A DNA stretch of 48,404 bases. Source: a virus. Under the pieces are notes generated by a model. It saw only the letters and a program-made list of their open reading frames with translations. It made no database searches and was not told where the DNA came from. This document shows positions 3,536 through 48,404 of this stretch, piece by piece; within the stretch, counting starts at the first letter, position 1; the number at the start of each line of letters is the position of its first letter. The position numbers and the translations under genes are program-made. The DNA lies in IMG/VR virus record IMGVR_UViG_3300045996_001029, positions 1 to 48,404 of that record; one strand, 5' to 3'.

Positions 3536-3921
3536 CCCGGAGCCAGCCTCTCATGCTTGATCTGGAGCCGGGCCACCATCTCCTTGGCCTCCCGGGAAGG
3601 GTGGTCGATGTCCCGCTCGCCGTGGTCGGCCGCCTCGTTGCCCGAGGAGAACAAGGGGACGACCGGCTCGGGGATCGGGCCAGCAGGCCACAGCCGCAAC
3701 CCGATCAGTTCGTTGGCGGTGCCTCGAGAGTTGTGCACAATCGCCCACCCGTTACACACAGCCTGGGGAGAGGCGTGGCAGGCGAAGGTGTTGTAGGGCT
3801 GGAGCTGGGTGGGAGCGTCGTACTCCCGCAGCTTCTCGTACTCGTGGCGCGCCCATATCCCCGAAGGCACGTCACGTCGATACGGACACGCCTCACAGGG
3901 CAAAGGTCGAATCTTCTTCAC
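3532..3921 (-). CDS. DUF6283-like cysteine-rich protein
   Basis: 129 aa with a GTG start at 3921 and CAAGGAGGT five bases upstream. The N-terminus PCEACPYRRDVPSGIWARHE, followed by CHASPQAVCNGW, matches the actinobacterial and phage family with a C-x2-CPYR-x-DVPSG core and a later C-H...C pair, known as DUF6283. The four or five cysteines and histidine suggest a metal site. The biochemical role of the family is not known. It is the first gene of a small operon whose leader carries the phage's stereotyped ribosome binding site. Confidence 0.78.
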   Translation of the reverse strand: MKKIRPLPCEACPYRRDVPSGIWARHEYEKLREYDAPTQLQPYNTFACHASPQAVCNGWAIVHNSRGTANELIGLRLWPAGPIPEPVVPLFSSGNEAADHGERDIDHPSREAKEMVARLQIKHERLAPG

Positions 3922-3942
3922 GAAACCTCCTTGTGGAAAGGT

Positions 3943-4152
3943 CTAGAACAGCGAGTCCCGCTGCTTGCGTTTCCCCCGGCTGCGTCTGATGTCGACGCAG
4001 GTGTTGCATGCCCAATTGCCAGTGCGACGGGCCAAATGAAGGGAGTGGGTCCCGCCGACCTTGCCTCTCAGATCGACGAAACCTACTTCCTCGGGGTGAT
4101 TGGGCTTCTGTGGGGAGATTTCCTCCCCACAAAAGACACACTTCACCTTCAC
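3943..4152 (-). CDS. Zinc-ribbon hypothetical protein
   Basis: 69 aa. Two Cys pairs (KCVFCGEE near the N-terminus and ACNTCVDI near residue 50) are 45 residues apart, the layout of a small zinc ribbon. The tail is basic (RRSRGKRKQR). The GTG start at 4152 overlaps the preceding stop (GTGA). This fits a small nucleic-acid-binding accessory protein; function unknown. Confidence 0.65.
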   Translation of the reverse strand: MKVKCVFCGEEISPQKPNHPEEVGFVDLRGKVGGTHSLHLARRTGNWACNTCVDIRRSRGKRKQRDSLF

Positions 4153-4385
4153 CCGGTACCTGCCTTCTCGCCCTTCTTCTTCTTCGTCACCGGCTCGGTG
4201 AGGCGCTGGTGGACGTGGAAGCGACCGGCCTCGTCCATGCCCGCATAAGCATTGAGGTCGATCAACAGCCGCTGCATCATCGCCGTCAACGGCTCCGCAG
4301 CATTGCGGAAATTGTTGGCGTAGTCGATGAGCTCGACAATGTGGACGGTGAGCCGGCCCTTGGCGTACTTCGGGTCGACAGGCAT
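4149..4385 (-). CDS. Hypothetical protein (78 aa)
   Basis: It begins MPVDPKYAKGRLTVHIVELI, with a helical middle and a lysine-rich end (TKKKKGEKAGTG). No motif is recognised. The start at 4385 lies 11 bases below the stop of the DUF932 gene and has AGGGGGGT upstream. It is coupled to the zinc-ribbon gene by a GTGA overlap. Confidence 0.65.
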   Translation of the reverse strand: MPVDPKYAKGRLTVHIVELIDYANNFRNAAEPLTAMMQRLLIDLNAYAGMDEAGRFHVHQRLTEPVTKKKKGEKAGTG

Positions 4386-12278: not shown

Positions 12279-13767
12279 AGCCCCGTCGATGGTCCTCCCC
12301 CGGTATTACACCCCCTCCAAATACCAGTCCACCCGCGGCCCGCTAGTCACCCGTTTCGCGGAGTCACTCCTCACGGTCCCGAAAGGCCCCCGAGTCGGGG
12401 AGCCGCTCCGCTATCTCAACTGGCAACGGTGGCTGCTGAACGAGGCGCTGGAGGTGCGCGACGACGGGCTGTTGCGGTATCGGAGAGGACTTGTCGGGGT
12501 GGCCCGGCAGAATGGCAAGTCGATTATCGGCTCCGGCCTCGGCCTCGAGCACTTGTTCTCCCCCACTCCCGGGCTAGAGGTCTACTCGTGTGCCGGGGAT
12601 CGGATGCAGGCCCGGATCGTGTTCGGGGAGGCCCGGAGACAGGTGCTCGCCTCCGAAACCCTCTCCAAGCTCGCCAAGGTGTACCGGGACGCGATCGAGG
12701 TCTACGCCACCGGCAACGTGTACCGAATCCTCTCTGCCGACGCCAAGCTCGCCCAGGGCCTAAGCCCTTCGCTGGTGATCTTCGACGAGGTGCACGTCCA
12801 GCCCAACGCCGAGCTTTGGGATGCGATGACGATGGGGACCGGGGCGAGGGAGCAGCCGCTAGTCCTCGGGATCACGACCGCTGGCGATGACCCGGAGAGC
12901 CTATGCGGGCAGCTGTACGACTACGGCGTGAAGGTGGCGACAGGAGAGGCCGAGGACGACGAGTTCGGGATGTGGTGGTGGGAACCCAGCGGCGGCGAGA
13001 AGGCTGAGATCGACGACCGGGAGGCATGGCGGGAGGCTAACCCATCGCTGGTCGAGGGGGTGACCTTCGAGAGCGATATGGCGATGGCGGCTCGCCAATC
13101 CCAGCCGATCGCGTTCCGCCGTTACCGGCTCAACCAGTGGTTCCGACACGGTGGGGCGGGGTGGATGGATATGGCGGCGTGGGACGCGGCGACCGACCCG
13201 AACCGCAAGATCAAGGAGGGCGAGGAGGTCCTGCTCACCTTCGACGGCTCGGTGGACGAGGACGCCACCGCGCTGGGGATGGTGACGATGGGCGACGATC
13301 CCCACTTCGAGCTGTTGGCGGTGTGGGAGCCGGACGAGAGCGACGAGAACTGGCAGGTGCCGCGCGACGAGGTGGATGCGGTGATCGAGGACGCCTTCTC
13401 CAAGTTCAAGGTGTACCGGTTGATGGCGGACCCGGCGTATTGGCGAACCGAGCTCCAGTTCTGGTCCGAGAAGTACGGGGCGAGAAAGATTCTGGAGTGG
13501 CCGGTGACCAACTCCCGGATGGGTCCGGCTGTGGCCGAGGCGTACAAGCGCATCAAGGATCAGACGATCACGGTCGAGGAGAACCCGACCCTGCGCCGCC
13601 ACATCGCCAACGCCGTCGTCAAGGACCTGGCCGGGGGGCTTCAGACCATCAAGAAAGAAAAACGGGGGTCGGCCAAAAAGATCGACGCGGCGGTGACGTT
13701 CGTGATCGCGATCGACGGCTTGGAGCGGTACAACAAGCGCCCGAAACGTACCCTCCGCTCATATTGA
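12268..13767 (+). CDS. terL: Terminase large subunit
   Basis: 499 aa. The ATPase half has a Walker A-like VARQNGKS (about residues 78-85) and a Walker B LVIFDEVH (about 169-176) whose Asp-Glu pair fits packaging motors. The nuclease half has LLTFDGSVDED (about 322-332), a first acidic metal ligand in the RNase H-like fold, and a late acidic segment near AVTFVIAID. The product cuts concatemers and pumps DNA through the portal. The start used is the TTG at 12268, behind an AGAGGTGAT site; an ATG eight codons in (12289) is an alternative. Confidence 0.93.
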   Translation: MTVEAPSMVLPRYYTPSKYQSTRGPLVTRFAESLLTVPKGPRVGEPLRYLNWQRWLLNEALEVRDDGLLRYRRGLVGVARQNGKSIIGSGLGLEHLFSPTPGLEVYSCAGDRMQARIVFGEARRQVLASETLSKLAKVYRDAIEVYATGNVYRILSADAKLAQGLSPSLVIFDEVHVQPNAELWDAMTMGTGAREQPLVLGITTAGDDPESLCGQLYDYGVKVATGEAEDDEFGMWWWEPSGGEKAEIDDREAWREANPSLVEGVTFESDMAMAARQSQPIAFRRYRLNQWFRHGGAGWMDMAAWDAATDPNRKIKEGEEVLLTFDGSVDEDATALGMVTMGDDPHFELLAVWEPDESDENWQVPRDEVDAVIEDAFSKFKVYRLMADPAYWRTELQFWSEKYGARKILEWPVTNSRMGPAVAEAYKRIKDQTITVEENPTLRRHIANAVVKDLAGGLQTIKKEKRGSAKKIDAAVTFVIAIDGLERYNKRPKRTLRSY

Positions 13768-35214: not shown

Positions 35215-35328
35215 CCAGGCCCTGAGGCAGTTTCCCGGGTGTTTTCGGCTCCCCCTACCCGAAGGTCGAGGGAACCGAAAACATCGCTTAGACGGCGTTT
35301 AAGCGGCCTCTCCGGGTGTTTCGTCGCT
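35215..35328 (+). repeat. Dispersed intergenic element, copy C
   Basis: CCAGGCCCTGAGGCA (35215-35229) is identical to 17206-17220. An 8-bp stem GTTTTCGG/CCGAAAAC (35241-35248 with 35275-35282) follows, then CGCTTAGACGG...GCGGCCTCTCCGGGTGTTTCGTCGCT (35286-35326), which matches copies A, B and D. The last part also encodes the C-terminus of the Rad52-like gene on the other strand. Confidence 0.6.
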
Positions 35329-35850
35329 CTCGCCCGCTCCCGCGACCGGCTCCGCATCGTCGGGGAACGGTTCGCGTGTTACCTCGGTTTCCCCGGTGTC
35401 CCGCTGGTTGAGCTGGACGGGAAGGTGATAGCCCTCCTTCGCCCACAGCTGGAGGCCGAGTCCGAGTCGCATCGCGCAACGCTTGAAGGCGTCGGAGGTG
35501 GCGGATTTGAGGTTCTCGGCGTCATGGCTCATGGCCGGGTTGTCCTCGGTCCCGACTTCGGTGATCGAGAACTCCCGGTTCCAGCGGTCCCGGATGGTGA
35601 GGGTGGCGGTCACCCCGAGGACCGCGTTCTCCCGGGCGGCGAAGGTGTTGTTCTCACTCTTTATCTCCGGGGCATACCCCCGGATCACGTCCCGCACCTC
35701 GAAGCTGTACGGCCCGACCACGGCCAAGAGGCGTTGGGTGATATCGGCGTGGTTGATGTAGGTGCCGTGCTTGCCTTTCGGCGCCCGCTGGACGTACCGA
35801 TCCGGGAATGGCTCGGCCAGGTCCTTCATCAGCACCATGTCGTAGTTCAT
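35299..35850 (-). CDS. Rad52/Sak-like single-strand annealing protein
   Basis: 183 aa from ATG 35850, overlapping the previous stop (ATGA); longer frames are unsupported. HGTYINHADITQRLLAVVGP, then AVLGVTATLTIRDRWNREFS and DAENLKSATSDAFKRCAMRL-GLGLQLW (about 110-136), reproduce the Rad52-type core, in which a conserved S-x3-DA-x-KR helix precedes G-x-GL-x-LW. It would anneal ssDNA during recombination-dependent replication, with SSB and RusA encoded nearby. The C-terminal 40 residues are acidic. Confidence 0.83.
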   Translation of the reverse strand: MNYDMVLMKDLAEPFPDRYVQRAPKGKHGTYINHADITQRLLAVVGPYSFEVRDVIRGYAPEIKSENNTFAARENAVLGVTATLTIRDRWNREFSITEVGTEDNPAMSHDAENLKSATSDAFKRCAMRLGLGLQLWAKEGYHLPVQLNQRDTGETEVTREPFPDDAEPVAGAGESDETPGEAA

Positions 35851-36335: not shown

Positions 36336-36544
36336 GCGATGCCTCCTTGTGGAAGGTTTCCGGTTCTCACGACCGGCTACCGCATAGGTTACCGGAGGGG
36401 TAGGACGGATTCGGGTTATCCACAAGCGAAGGCCCCATCGGAAACATGAGTTCCGACAGGGCCTTCACTCCACAAGGAAGTATCACCGAATCGCCCGTTG
36501 AGGATCGTCCCTGACCCGCAAAACGAATGGGTGCACCTCTTAGA
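36336..36544 (-). terminator. Inter-operon gap with a strong bidirectional hairpin
   Basis: Between the glycosyltransferase stop and the next leader lies an interrupted stem: GAAGGCCC/GGGCCTTC (about 36428-36435 with 36460-36467) around TCGGAA/TTCCGA, loop ACATGAG. This would end the modification operon. On the other side is the CCACAAGGAGG leader of the 36335 gene. The rest shows no gene and no clear promoter. Confidence 0.65.
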
Positions 36545-37276
36545 TCACAGATTAGCAGCGGACCGTCTCAGCAACACCTCATGCCCTCCCCGGCGGCGGT
36601 TGGGCTGGACTAGAGAGGGCCACCGCGTCATCAAGGATTGGACCTCGGCAATCGCCAAAGTTTCCCGGTCGATCAAGGTGTCCTGGAGGCCACCGGGAGT
36701 CCTCCCCACGTCGGAGGCGTGCATCGAGAAAAAGTCGAAGCGGAGCACCCCGCCATCTGACTCGTAGTGGAGCAGGGTCCGCTCGTAGTCCTCTTTGGCC
36801 TCGAGAGTGACCGGCAGGTCGGGCCGGTTCAGCACCCCGTAGTGGGCGCCGTAGGCGTAGTAGAGGCCGAGCTTGGTCCGGGGGGACATGTAGAAGGGAT
36901 TGGGCGTCGGGGCCACCGACCACAGCGACACCCGCTCTTTTTGGGCGACCTCGAAGAACGAAATCCAATAGGAGGTGACGTCACGGACTGGATGGGTCGT
37001 GCTCCCCGAAAGGGCCACCCAGCCCGTAACGTCGTCATCACACCACACAATCTCGGCTCGCTCGGGAGTCATCGAGGAAGCGAAATTGCGATTGGCGTGA
37101 AGTGTGGCCTCCCCCGGTTCCACCCTCATGCCCCGAGGGGCGGTGGCACGGTAATCGCTCTCTTGGCCTGGGGTGACCCAGATCGTGACTATTTCGGGGT
37201 CCACCCCGGCATCGACCAGCGCATCGGGGGTGGTCATGGTTCGGGCCCGGTTGTGCGAGGGGATGTAGACCCTCAA
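36545..37276 (-). CDS. TET-associated-type glycosyltransferase (GT-A fold)
   Basis: 243 aa from a TTG (37276) overlapping the dioxygenase stop (TTGA). RVYIPSHNRARTM is the opening strand and loop of GT-A enzymes, and IVWCDDDVTGW (D80-D82) is the metal-binding DxD-type motif. KEDYERTLLHYESDGGVLRF (about 161-180) looks like the acceptor/catalytic acid region. The sequence fits the TAGT family found beside phage TET enzymes, which glycosylate oxidised bases in DNA. The pairing with the next gene strongly supports that role. Confidence 0.78.
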   Translation of the reverse strand: MRVYIPSHNRARTMTTPDALVDAGVDPEIVTIWVTPGQESDYRATAPRGMRVEPGEATLHANRNFASSMTPERAEIVWCDDDVTGWVALSGSTTHPVRDVTSYWISFFEVAQKERVSLWSVAPTPNPFYMSPRTKLGLYYAYGAHYGVLNRPDLPVTLEAKEDYERTLLHYESDGGVLRFDFFSMHASDVGRTPGGLQDTLIDRETLAIAEVQSLMTRWPSLVQPNRRRGGHEVLLRRSAANL

Positions 37277-38115
37277 AACACCGGGTCCATCGGGGAGTCC
37301 CGCAGCATGTGATCCTCCCGCTCGGTGCGCTTCTCCGTCCCTCGCTTCTGTTCCACGGCCCAGGTGTGGCAGTCCTTCATCCCCTTCAGCGAGTAGTAGA
37401 CCACTGAGATGCGATAGCCGTCCTCGGTCACCTTCGTCATGGGCGTGACGCCGTGAACGATGCGCCACCCTGGGAAGTAGACCACCCACCCGTCCCGGCA
37501 GGTGAACGAGCAGTCGTACTCGGGGAGATGCAGCTCACCACCACGCACTCCCCGACGCACAACCGGCATAGCCGACCAAGAGTGAAAGTTGGCCCCGTCC
37601 CGGTGATAGGGCAGCTGAGAGGAGAGGTTGATGACGCCGCTGGTCCAGATCGTCTCCTCGCCCAAGCGCCACTCCGGTAGCACATCAGCCACCTCTTTCC
37701 GGTCGGCGGCCGCAATGTCGGGAAGGTGGGTTTGGACCCAGGCGGTGAGGTCGTTGGCGGTGTCCTCTAGGACAGCCTCGATGTCGGGGCGGGTGTAGTA
37801 GAGGGCGGAGGGGCGACAACTCTCCCGCTTCAGCACCGCCTTGCGGGGGGCCATCCCGAAGGTCGAGGACACGTTCCGCAGGCCCTGGCCGGAGCGGAGG
37901 GTGGAGGACCATGGCGTATCCATCACGGCCCGGCGGAAGGTGGCGACGTCACCGGGGAGTGGGGCATAGGCGAGCACCGGCTCCCCGGTATCAACGTCGC
38001 TCCAAATGCCCTCCTGCTGGATCGGTAGGGCATAGGGCTGGTCGGTCACCATCGACCCCACCTTCTCATTGGCCTGCTCGGGGCTGATGACCCGTTGGAT
38101 CCGAAAGTGGTTCAC
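37273..38115 (-). CDS. TET/JBP-like 2-oxoglutarate/Fe(II) DNA dioxygenase
   Basis: 280 aa from a GTG overlapping the ParB-like stop (GTGA). The double-stranded beta-helix core shows LPYHRDGANFHSW (H171, D173: the HxD iron motif), GGELHLPEYD, FPGWRIVHGVTP (H221, distal iron ligand) and YRISVVYYS (R235, binding 2-oxoglutarate). The wording of these motifs is that of phage TET/JBP enzymes rather than AlkB or prolyl hydroxylases. The reaction is hydroxylation of the 5-methyl group of 5-methylcytosine or thymine in DNA. No methyltransferase was recognised in this closed genome, so the substrate is uncertain. Confidence 0.8.
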   Translation of the reverse strand: MNHFRIQRVISPEQANEKVGSMVTDQPYALPIQQEGIWSDVDTGEPVLAYAPLPGDVATFRRAVMDTPWSSTLRSGQGLRNVSSTFGMAPRKAVLKRESCRPSALYYTRPDIEAVLEDTANDLTAWVQTHLPDIAAADRKEVADVLPEWRLGEETIWTSGVINLSSQLPYHRDGANFHSWSAMPVVRRGVRGGELHLPEYDCSFTCRDGWVVYFPGWRIVHGVTPMTKVTEDGYRISVVYYSLKGMKDCHTWAVEQKRGTEKRTEREDHMLRDSPMDPVF

Positions 38116-38756
38116 TCTTTGGGCTCGGGTGGGGGCTGGTTGGGGAACTTGTCGGCCACCAGCCGTAGGACGGCCTCGGCGTTGGTGTTGACCTGATAGC
38201 GGAATCGAAGCTCGTTGAGCCGGTCCACCATCCACAGGTAAGTCTCGCCCTCGTAGTCGAGGAGGATGGTGCGGATGGTCTTGGCGAGATACCCCGCCGC
38301 CCAGGAATCGAGGTTGTCCTCCTCGTTGTCGACCATGTTGCGGGTGATTTCCTCGGAGGTCTCCTGGGCCTCGGCCAACAGATCGTCGAGGTCGATCGAG
38401 TCATAACCGGTGCCGACCAGGTCGTTGAGACTCTCGAGCAGAGCAACCAGCTCGGCGTCCCGATAGCCGCCGGTGTCCGAGGAGCGGTTGTCGACGAGGA
38501 GAATCTTCAGCGCCTGCTCGTCGTCCACATCGAGACGGATCACGTCCGCCTCCTCCCAGCCCAGCTGTTCCATCCCCTCGTGGCGCCCGTTCCCGGCGAG
38601 TACGTGGGAGGTGGAGCGCTGGACGATCAGGGGGGAGAACTGGCCGTGGGTGCGGAGCGATTCCTTGATGATGTCGAGGTTGTGGGTCCGGGCGTTGCGG
38701 GGGTGGCGGGTGAGGGACGAGAGCGGGACACGCTCGACGGTGAGAACGTCGGTCAT
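38112..38756 (-). CDS. ParB/Srx-like domain protein of the modification cassette
   Basis: 214 aa from ATG 38756; a GTG at 38777 is possible. The N-terminal ParB/sulfiredoxin fold shows RVPLSSLTRHPRNARTHNLD, HGQFSPLIVQRSTSHVLAGN and GRHEGMEQLGW, that is, the 'GNGRHEA'-type phosphate or nucleotide loop. DNRSSDTGGYRD follows. Such proteins are recurrent partners of phage TET and glycosyltransferase genes and may nick, bind or mark DNA. It overlaps the dioxygenase gene, so all three genes form one operon. Confidence 0.8.
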   Translation of the reverse strand: MTDVLTVERVPLSSLTRHPRNARTHNLDIIKESLRTHGQFSPLIVQRSTSHVLAGNGRHEGMEQLGWEEADVIRLDVDDEQALKILLVDNRSSDTGGYRDAELVALLESLNDLVGTGYDSIDLDDLLAEAQETSEEITRNMVDNEEDNLDSWAAGYLAKTIRTILLDYEGETYLWMVDRLNELRFRYQVNTNAEAVLRLVADKFPNQPPPEPKE

Positions 38757-38766
38757 CGCCGCCAGC

Positions 38767-39147
38767 CTAAGCCTCACGAAGCTGGATCGTCACCCCCGCT
38801 CCCCCGTAGACCTTCCAGGCGTTGATCCGGGCCATCTGTGCGTCGTCCTCCCACACCCCGGCCATGGTGAGGGCGTCGCCCACAGCCCGCACCAGCTTGT
38901 CGAGGTCGGGAGGGGTGGTCTTGAACCTCGCGCGATCGCGCGAACGGGGAGGGCGGGGAAACTCGAACATGAGGATGGCCGCTACCGGGGTCCCTTTGGG
39001 AAAGGTTCCCCGATACCGGAGCATCTGATATGCAATCAGGTCCCGCCAGGCGTCCAACTTCTCCTGGTTCTCGTGGATCATCCGCTTCCCCACCGAGCGC
39101 ATCGAGCCTTGGCCGATGGGGATCCCCTCGATCCTCACCCGGATCAT
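38767..39147 (-). CDS. rusA: RusA-like Holliday junction resolvase
   Basis: 126 aa from ATG 39147, overlapping the previous stop. RVRIEGIPIGQGSMRSVG, the strand AAILMFEFPRP and PDLDKLVRAVGDALTMAGVW-EDDAQM contain the conserved acidic residues (D81, D83, D91, D101/D102) and the Lys84 of RusA. It resolves branched DNA before packaging, together with the annealing protein. Confidence 0.88.
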   Translation of the reverse strand: MIRVRIEGIPIGQGSMRSVGKRMIHENQEKLDAWRDLIAYQMLRYRGTFPKGTPVAAILMFEFPRPPRSRDRARFKTTPPDLDKLVRAVGDALTMAGVWEDDAQMARINAWKVYGGAGVTIQLREA

Positions 39148-39374
39148 GCCCGGCGACGCGCCCGACGCGCCCGCTCTTGGTCGGCGTGGCAGATTCGACA
39201 ACGCCGACCGCCCTTGGAGTCAACATGGGAGTAGGGGTGACCCCGGGGGCAGGCGGTTTTCACCGAGTGCTGGTTGACCCGCTTCTTGATCCCCCCGTTC
39301 TCACAGACGGGGCAGACCGCGCCCTCGCCCCGGTATTGGCGCTCGCACCGAGGACACGTTCTCACCCCAACCAC
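39144..39374 (-). CDS. Zinc-ribbon protein with CPRGHPY motif
   Basis: 76 aa from GTG 39374, immediately after the previous stop (TGAGTG) with GAGGAGGAA before it. Two finger-like units: TCPRCERQY...VCPVCENGG, and ACPRGHPYSHVDSKGGRRCR-ICHADQERARRARRR. The second is the common phage CPxGHxY...RxCRxC module. It is probably nucleic-acid binding; exact role unknown. Confidence 0.7.
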   Translation of the reverse strand: MVGVRTCPRCERQYRGEGAVCPVCENGGIKKRVNQHSVKTACPRGHPYSHVDSKGGRRCRICHADQERARRARRRA

Positions 39375-44221: not shown

Positions 44222-44563
44222 TCACTCCTTGAATTGCTTGGCGAACTCTTGCAACTGTGTCTCCAGGTGCTCTCTCCCTTCCTCGGTGTCTAGATCGGCC
44301 TCGACAATCAGGTCGGCCACCATCGCCAGCTTCCTGGGGACGGAAGCGCCGGGGGCGACGATGGCGAGGATGGGCTTGTCGAGGAGAAAGCCCAACCCGA
44401 TTTCCACTGCGAACTTCACGTCCGGCTCGTGCTTGTCGGTGTAGAGCTGCATGACGAAGGCCGAGGCGTCCATCTGGATCAGCGTCTCCCGGCGAACGTG
44501 GCTCACCCACTCGTCCCACTGTGTTCGCTCGTCGGGGTTCAACTCGTCCAGCCAATCGCTCAT
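44222..44563 (-). CDS. Nucleoside 2-deoxyribosyltransferase-like protein (putative)
   Basis: 113 aa from ATG 44563, overlapping the previous stop (ATGA). MDASAFVMQLYTDKHEPDVK-FAVEIGLGFLLDKPILAIVA recalls the nucleoside 2-deoxyribosyltransferase-like Rossmann fold, in which a Glu in '..EIG.A...GKPI..V' is catalytic. It could alter nucleotide pools, or be an inactive relative. The family call is tentative. Confidence 0.5.
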   Translation of the reverse strand: MSDWLDELNPDERTQWDEWVSHVRRETLIQMDASAFVMQLYTDKHEPDVKFAVEIGLGFLLDKPILAIVAPGASVPRKLAMVADLIVEADLDTEEGREHLETQLQEFAKQFKE

Positions 44564-47025: not shown

Positions 47026-48404
47026 CTAAAGGGTCGCGGTCCACCGATATTCCAGGGTCGGACGACCCCCGGCGCTCGGCATCTCCCGGGCCTCAATCTC
47101 GGAGTAGTCGGCCGCCAGGTGAGCAAGGTCGTCACGCACCCGCCGCACGTCGACTTCGATCCCTGCCTCGGCCAGGAGTTCTTGCGCCCGGGTCGGGGAG
47201 AGAGAGGCTCCGTCCATGAGGGTGTCCCGGAGGAGCACCCGTCGCACCTGGGCCTCGGTCAGCTGGGGCTGGCCGCGGCGTTGAGGCTGCTCCTCGTCGT
47301 CCTCAAAGACCACCGAGTTGGCGGGGATGGGGTTGAAGCGGACCCGGTGAGCCGGTTGGAACTCACCGGGCGTCTCAAACTCCACGTCCCAGGCGGTTTT
47401 GATTCCCCGGAGGCCGTAGTCGGAATCTTTGAAACAGTCGACGACGATGTAGCTGGCCTGGGTCTCGACGTTGTGGATCAGCCGGGGCCGAGCCTCGTGC
47501 ATGATCGAGCCGAATAGCCGAGCACGTCGATTCCGTATCGAATCGGCGCTCTTGTGGGCGACCACCAGGGCTGGGACCCCGAGGGCCGACACCGCATCCC
47601 AATATCGGTTGGCGATCTCCTCGTCGATCAGCGAGCCACCGATGGATGCCGAGAGCGAGTCGATCACGACCGCCTCGTACCCGTTGTCCCGGACGTACTC
47701 GGTGAGCCAGGGCCCAGCCGAGGCGAGTGGCTGGTGCAGCTCCAGGTAGTGGAGGTCGGCCCCGGGCCGCAGTGCCTGGACCCGGGGGTAGACACGGTCG
47801 ATGGACGCCTCCCAATCGAGGACCAGGGTTCGGGCCTGGCGCTGGATGCGGGCCTGGATCGGGTCGGCTGCGTAGATCAAGAGCTCGCCGTGGTGAACGG
47901 ACAGGGCGAAGGCGAGGGCCAGGTAGGACTTGTAGGACCCTGGCGCCCCGGCGATCACCGTGGCTCCCGATGCCGCCCACCAGGGGGAGAGGAGAAGCGC
48001 AGGGGAATCCGAGGGCGGGGGCTGGTACTCGGAAGTGCGGATCACCTCCGGCCTGACCTCGGACCAGGCGATCAGCTCGATGAAAAGCGTCTCCACCCAG
48101 GTGGCGACCTCGGCCTTGTCGATCCCGTCGATGCGGTTGAGTGCGGTTATCAGCCCGCCTCTCCCTGATGCGGAGACCAGGGCGACCTCGACTCCCCAAT
48201 GGACCCGGTGCGCCTTCCCCATCACCGTCACGGTCGGGAACACCTGGGAGGCGTAGCCGCGCCCGGTTCGGTAGGGCTTGGTGGCTCGCACGTGGAGCGG
48301 GCCGACCACAATCTCGGCCTCGTTCTCGTTGCGCCCGGGCAAGCGCCGGGTCGAGGTGACCGGGGCGGTACCGGTGGCCGGCTCCAACTCCTCGAGAGAA
48401 TGGC
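47026..48404 (-). CDS. Primase-helicase, C-terminal part (joins 833-1 across the circle)
   Basis: The ATPase and C-terminal part of the 694-aa protein; the true junction is base 48277 to base 1, and bases 48278-48404 duplicate 1-127. A RecA-like helicase core has Walker A GAPGSYKS (about residue 388-395 of the whole protein). The segments IDSLSASIGGSLIDEEIANR and PALVVAHKSADSIRNRRARL supply Walker B and sensor features. The C-terminal 60 residues look like a winged helix (TEAQVRRVLLRDTLMDGASL). The layout, CHC2 zinc finger, TOPRIM and RepA-like ATPase, is a combined primase and helicase. Confidence 0.9.
   Translation of the reverse strand, partial: HSLEELEPATGTAPVTSTRRLPGRNENEAEIVVGPLHVRATKPYRTGRGYASQVFPTVTVMGKAHRVHWGVEVALVSASGRGGLITALNRIDGIDKAEVATWVETLFIELIAWSEVRPEVIRTSEYQPPPSDSPALLLSPWWAASGATVIAGAPGSYKSYLALAFALSVHHGELLIYAADPIQARIQRQARTLVLDWEASIDRVYPRVQALRPGADLHYLELHQPLASAGPWLTEYVRDNGYEAVVIDSLSASIGGSLIDEEIANRYWDAVSALGVPALVVAHKSADSIRNRRARLFGSIMHEARPRLIHNVETQASYIVVDCFKDSDYGLRGIKTAWDVEFETPGEFQPAHRVRFNPIPANSVVFEDDEEQPQRRGQPQLTEAQVRRVLLRDTLMDGASLSPTRAQELLAEAGIEVDVRRVRDDLAHLAADYSEIEAREMPSAGGRPTLEYRWTATL
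48278..48404. repeat. Terminal overlap, right copy
   Basis: Identical to bases 1-127 (see left copy). Removing one copy leaves a circular unit of 48,277 bp. Confidence 0.93.

Follow-up and report, generated by a model that had tools for sequence, protein, structure and literature searches.

The window analyzed here, a viral DNA stretch of 48,404 nucleotides, is a closed record of 48,277 bp with a 127-nt terminal repeat, as expected from the circular genome claimed in a first-pass annotation. Its minus strand encodes a cassette of three overlapping genes, for which the coordinates, strand, and overlaps given earlier are all exact. The cassette starts with a ParB-like protein (214 amino acids, 38756–38112), followed by a TET/JBP-type 2-oxoglutarate/Fe(II) dioxygenase (TET; 280 amino acids, 38115–37273) and a TAGT-like GT-A glycosyltransferase (GT; 243 amino acids, 37276–36545). 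The ParB-like and TET genes overlap by GTGA, which contains the GTG start of TET, and the TET and GT genes overlap by TTGA, which contains the TTG start of GT. By a simple codon model, the composition of all three genes is coding-like. Between GT and the gene that follows the cassette, the minus strand is predicted to form a strong hairpin (36426–36468; −38.6 kcal/mol, z −6.2, equaled by 0 of 200 shuffles in a fold of positions 36405–36480). This hairpin contains no U tract and is a possible terminator or processing element.

Upstream of the cassette, a gene for a RusA-like Holliday junction resolvase (38767–39168, minus strand) ends ∼10 nt before the ParB-like gene and probably shares a transcript with it. 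A Rad52-type annealing protein is encoded downstream (35299–35850), and a reading frame for a primase (Toprim) with an AAA domain spans the circular junction (3–740 and 47026–48277, minus strand; ∼660 amino acids when joined). The gene at 44222–44563 (minus strand) matches the nucleoside 2-deoxyribosyltransferase family weakly (PF05014, E 2e-4, below the cut-off) and, judged by this similarity, could bear on nucleotide supply. The window phage is remote from cultured phages, with best matches of ∼35% for TerL and ∼38% for the capsid protein.

The dioxygenase matches Tet_JBP (PF12851) with 25.0 bits (E 1.3e-5), which is below the Pfam gathering score of 34.9 bits, a curation threshold rather than a biological feature; its close relatives fall on either side of this score (18–38 bits). 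The match to phrog_6059 is strong (1.3e-82), and beside the weak Tet_JBP hit the protein shows no Pfam domain other than one sub-threshold chance match. An AlphaFold2 model based on 35 aligned sequences from the window and IMG/VR reached a mean pLDDT of 87.7. When this model was searched against the PDB with Foldseek, ranks 1–26 were all NgTet1, CcTet, TET2, or CMD1, followed by AlkB-type enzymes. The iron ligands His-171, Asp-173 (HxD), and His-221 and the 2-oxoglutarate-binding Arg-235 are present as described and are invariant in 112 sequences, so that both the TET/JBP assignment and the catalytic residues of the first-pass annotation hold. Mycobacteriophage proteins of the gp2 type have long been recognized as belonging to this TET/JBP family.

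Both phrog_6059 and RefSeq records name this protein “queuine tRNA-ribosyltransferase,” and according to this name the dioxygenase might act on a nucleotide or on RNA instead of DNA. We consider this highly improbable, as the protein contains no tRNA-ribosyltransferase family and the top PDB matches of the model are the DNA-acting TET enzymes and CMD1. The name looks like a transferred misannotation. In RefSeq it is also carried by the TET that neighbors a PF18751 kinase in the phages Reprobate, Acadian, and Nigel.

The glycosyltransferase matches TAGT (PF20691) with 21.0 bits (E 3.5e-4), again short of the gathering score that curators set for this family (27.5 bits), and its homologues from Acadian and from locus L045 match the same family with 131 and 30 bits, respectively. 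By tblastn, GT matches the glycosyltransferases of Arthrobacter phages and of Acadian-type Mycobacterium phages, with about 29–34% identity to the cultured relatives. The GT model (pLDDT 85.6) matches GT-A sugar transferases, and the protein thus combines a predicted GT-A fold with an acidic metal motif. This motif is the DDD proposed earlier (Asp-80 to Asp-82), in which Asp-81 and Asp-82 are invariant in 18 aligned sequences; the TAGT type is likewise borne out by the sub-gathering PF20691 match and the GT-A-like model. A related glycosyltransferase (32% identity to GT) is encoded at 12947–13729 of NZ_CP027794.1, a non-mobilizable 92-kb plasmid of Prescottella equi that may be a phage-plasmid.

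GT-A folds are promiscuous, and the solved structures closest to the GT model are protein and glycan transferases. GT could therefore act elsewhere, for example on a virion protein or a cell-wall glycan, while TET makes 5-hydroxymethyluracil (5hmU) or 5hmC and leaves only hydroxymethyl groups in DNA; TET does occur at some loci with neither GT nor ADDT. However, the GT gene adjoins the TET gene and is translationally coupled to it through TTGA, Tet_JBP is also encoded on 45 of the 50 contigs that hold relatives of GT, and the TAGT of phage T6 has been assigned to the glycosylation of modified cytosine (PMC13390438). A target outside DNA is therefore quite unlikely.

The ParB-like protein matches ParB_N (PF02195) above the gathering score (3.5e-6) and phrog_723 with 7.6e-40. 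In 99 of the 100 loci with sufficient upstream sequence, its gene immediately precedes TET. By this conservation, ParB is perhaps part of the oxidation step and targets it. The GNGRHE loop highlighted in the first-pass annotation is present, but it is the window phage's own variant: only GN is conserved, and most relatives read GNHTxxA. In the cyanophage MED4-117 (L012), a “DNA methylase” annotated upstream of a distant TET (3641–4282) turned out to be a ParB_N protein just under the Pfam cut-off, and the C5-methyltransferase profile PF00145 was not found in that genome.

The singularity implied in the first-pass annotation is not supported, because tblastn recovered TET from 90 phage records, with at most about 51% identity to the window TET; most of these phages belong to the hosts Mycobacterium, Microbacterium, Arthrobacter, and Gordonia. 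Single-sequence scans of viral contigs with the window TET or GT gave no matches; alignment queries did match, and an alignment-based scan found TET relatives on 264 IMG/VR stretches, 80 of which were kept. One relative resides on an Actinomycetota MAG contig. The same order of a ParB-like gene and a TET of the same clade is found in the gp2-type cassettes of actinobacteriophages (Mycobacterium phages Cooper, Nigel, Acadian, and Reprobate; Arthrobacter phages Prairie and Altadena; and Rhodococcus phage Tonitrus), whose TETs are 42–50% identical to that of the window by alignment. A TAGT-like GT also follows next to TET in the Arthrobacter and Acadian-type phages. In contrast to these gp2-type cassettes, which adjoin the terminase, the window cassette adjoins the RusA gene and carries GT alone, since PIG-L deacetylase, ADDT, and kinase are all absent from the window. 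Phage TET and TAGT gene pairs were reportedly predicted by Iyer et al. in 2013, with thymine as a possible substrate. Cooper gp2 has served as a TET/JBP reference sequence (PMC12730594), and a published study (PMC11955845) considers the Tonitrus gene set a putative system for the hypermodification of thymine. The cassette type is thus not new, as such pairs have been predicted before and many cultured actinobacterial phages share its core; the window represents a divergent, minimal member of this already predicted class.

Which base does TET oxidize? The first-pass annotation had recognized no C5-methyltransferase in the circular genome, and this was confirmed by a profile search, in which PF00145 was not found in any of the six frames of the window and control genomes gave matches; no methyltransferase family occurs among the early genes of the window either. 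PF00145 also had no match in the genomes of 14 cultured phages that encode this TET, which amounts to 0 of 15 complete records. A profile check for thymidylate synthase/hydroxymethylase gave the same picture, with the TS-type hydroxymethylase PF00303 absent from the window and from the 14 cultured genomes (15 in all). With neither family found, TET is the sole recognized source of a C5-hydroxymethyl group and thymine is the sole C5-methyl base known to be present, which favors thymine as the simplest remaining substrate.

Alternatively, TET might oxidize 5-methylcytosine (5mC) made by the host, or by an unrecognized phage enzyme, to 5hmC, which GT would then glycosylate. Characterized phage TETs act on 5mC, as stated in a passage of PMC12730594 that cites Burke et al. 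2021. In addition, PF00145 is present on 9 of 100 related or GT-bearing IMG/VR contigs (7/50 and 2/50), including one (L138) that carries a gp2-type TET together with TAGT and PIG-L. On these contigs, however, PF00145 lies outside the cassette, and it occurs on 0 of the 13 TAGT-bearing contigs in the first set of 50. Host 5mC would also be sparse and host-dependent, whereas phages infecting several host genera have all kept the cassette. Many phages of the TET clade grow on M. smegmatis, which is reported to possess a unique DNA methyltransferase, MamA-like and of the predicted N6-adenine or N4-cytosine type (PMC7526240), so that TET is unlikely to act on host 5mC in this species. Considering also that near-identical TETs pair with ADDT and a kinase (see below), we regard the oxidation of 5mC as unlikely, although less so than the two alternatives discussed above.

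The active site may offer a further pointer to thymine. The residue eight positions after the 2-oxoglutarate arginine (R+8) is Leu, Lys, Met, or Ile in all 112 sequences and never the His found in TET2 and NgTet1, which contacts the cytosine base. This is suggestive only, because other phage TET clades possess an Arg at R+8 and the position alone therefore cannot separate thymine from 5mC enzymes.

Another indication comes from the genes that follow ParB and TET. Across 112 loci, TAGT is found downstream in 36 (a number inflated by one locus set that was fetched with the GT) and ADDT (PF18724) in 31, whereas no locus contains both; of the remaining loci, 14 encode a kinase only, as detected with our own profile, and 31 encode none of these. 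By Pfam, divergent ADDT is also present in some kinase-only loci (L018 and L057). ADDT is usually accompanied by a P-loop kinase (PF18751), and some loci contain additional genes for PIG-L, an FAD oxidoreductase, or a PLP-type enzyme. Kinase and GT do not strictly exclude each other, as Acadian carries both. When the TAGT and ADDT labels are placed on the TET tree, at least seven switches are required. The TETs of Reprobate (ADDT, FAD oxidoreductase, and kinase) and Acadian (TAGT, PIG-L, and kinase) are 92% identical, and those of L057 (ADDT and kinase) and L045 (TAGT) are 84% identical. TETs this conserved are unlikely to have switched their base, so that both modules are probably supplied with the same hydroxymethyl base. 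ADDT and the PF18751 kinase are assigned to 5hmU chemistry by their Pfam names and in a passage of PMC11955845 citing Lee et al., an assignment that is made by family for the phages considered here.

Several other genes at these loci deserve mention. The “terminase small subunit” of Reprobate (L002, NC_022064.1), Acadian (L009, NC_023701.1), and Nigel (L013, NC_011044.1) is in each case a PF18751 kinase (about 207–246 bits). At 13 loci that possess neither TAGT nor ADDT, TET is followed by a 308-amino acid protein (6846–7772 of L041) or one of its 12 relatives; this protein has no Pfam match and is a candidate for another second-step enzyme. Four loci (L058, L093, L154, and L174) contain about three TAGT-like glycosyltransferases in tandem after ParB and TET, suggesting an oligosaccharide decoration.

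Taken together, there is good support for the proposed operon for DNA hypermodification, which combines TET and TAGT without a phage C5-methyltransferase. The first-pass annotation left two substrates open, of which comparative evidence favors thymine and disfavors host 5mC, based on the pairing with ADDT and kinase and on the M. smegmatis hosts. We consider it likely that the cassette makes glycosylated 5hmU in phage DNA. In a first step, the TET/JBP dioxygenase would convert thymine in DNA into 5hmU by hydroxylating its methyl group; a methyltransferase would not be needed, because thymine already is a 5-methylpyrimidine. The TAGT-like GT-A enzyme would then use a nucleotide-sugar as the donor to glycosylate the hydroxyl group thus created. 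The resulting base-J-like residue would probably shield the DNA from host nucleases, and ParB, as the fixed partner, would perhaps place or license the oxidation on DNA. The analysis establishes the gene content, the predicted fold, the catalytic residues, the conserved linkage of the genes, and the exchange of the second-step module; from these we infer the thymine substrate, the order of the steps, the base-J-like product, and the protection of DNA. The complete scenario, in which two enzymes and no methyltransferase suffice for a glycosyl-5hmU route in a bacterial virus and ParB places or licenses the mark, is more tentative and has somewhat less than an even chance of being correct. For the window itself, the thymine pathway is an extrapolation from the clade. 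This clade-wide reasoning could fail here, because the window TET forms a long branch of uncertain placement on the TET tree, shares at most 52% identity with its relatives, and has neither a deacetylase nor ADDT or kinase beside it.

The proposed pathway follows the logic expected for kinetoplastid base J (JBP1/JBP2 and the J glucosyltransferase), in which a 2-oxoglutarate dioxygenase acts on thymine and a sugar is then transferred to 5hmU. It differs in being viral, in using a different glycosyltransferase, and in the absence of the J-binding domain of JBP1 and the SNF2 domain of JBP2, for which the single-domain TET of 280 amino acids has no room. In the phages M6, ViI, and W-14, studied by Lee et al. 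in 2018 and 2022, a TS-like hydroxymethylase reportedly produces 5hmU at the level of nucleotides. PF00303 is absent from the window, and TET would instead act on DNA. The 5hmU intermediate proposed here is nevertheless shared with the thymidine hypermodification of these phages (Lee et al. 2018, 2022), and the PF18724 and PF18751 families of that pathway occur beside TET in relatives of the window. The phage TET systems for cytosine hypermodification likewise combine a phage TET with glycosyltransferases that act on DNA bases, but, as reported by Burke et al. in 2021, they use a phage C5-methyltransferase and 5mC; no such enzyme was found in the window or in the 14 cultured genomes.

In the open literature, we found no report of the base acted on by a gp2-type TET/JBP enzyme. 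The exchange of downstream modules adds evidence that points to thymine and names cultured phages for testing. Acadian and Reprobate, both cultured on M. smegmatis, combine near-identical TETs with swapped modules and make the question of the substrate directly testable. If the proposed pathway is correct, both phages would contain thymine-derived hypermodifications, one bearing a sugar and the other an amino acid. The cassette would then parallel the base J route in a virus of bacteria and would provide enzymes that attach sugars to thymine in DNA.
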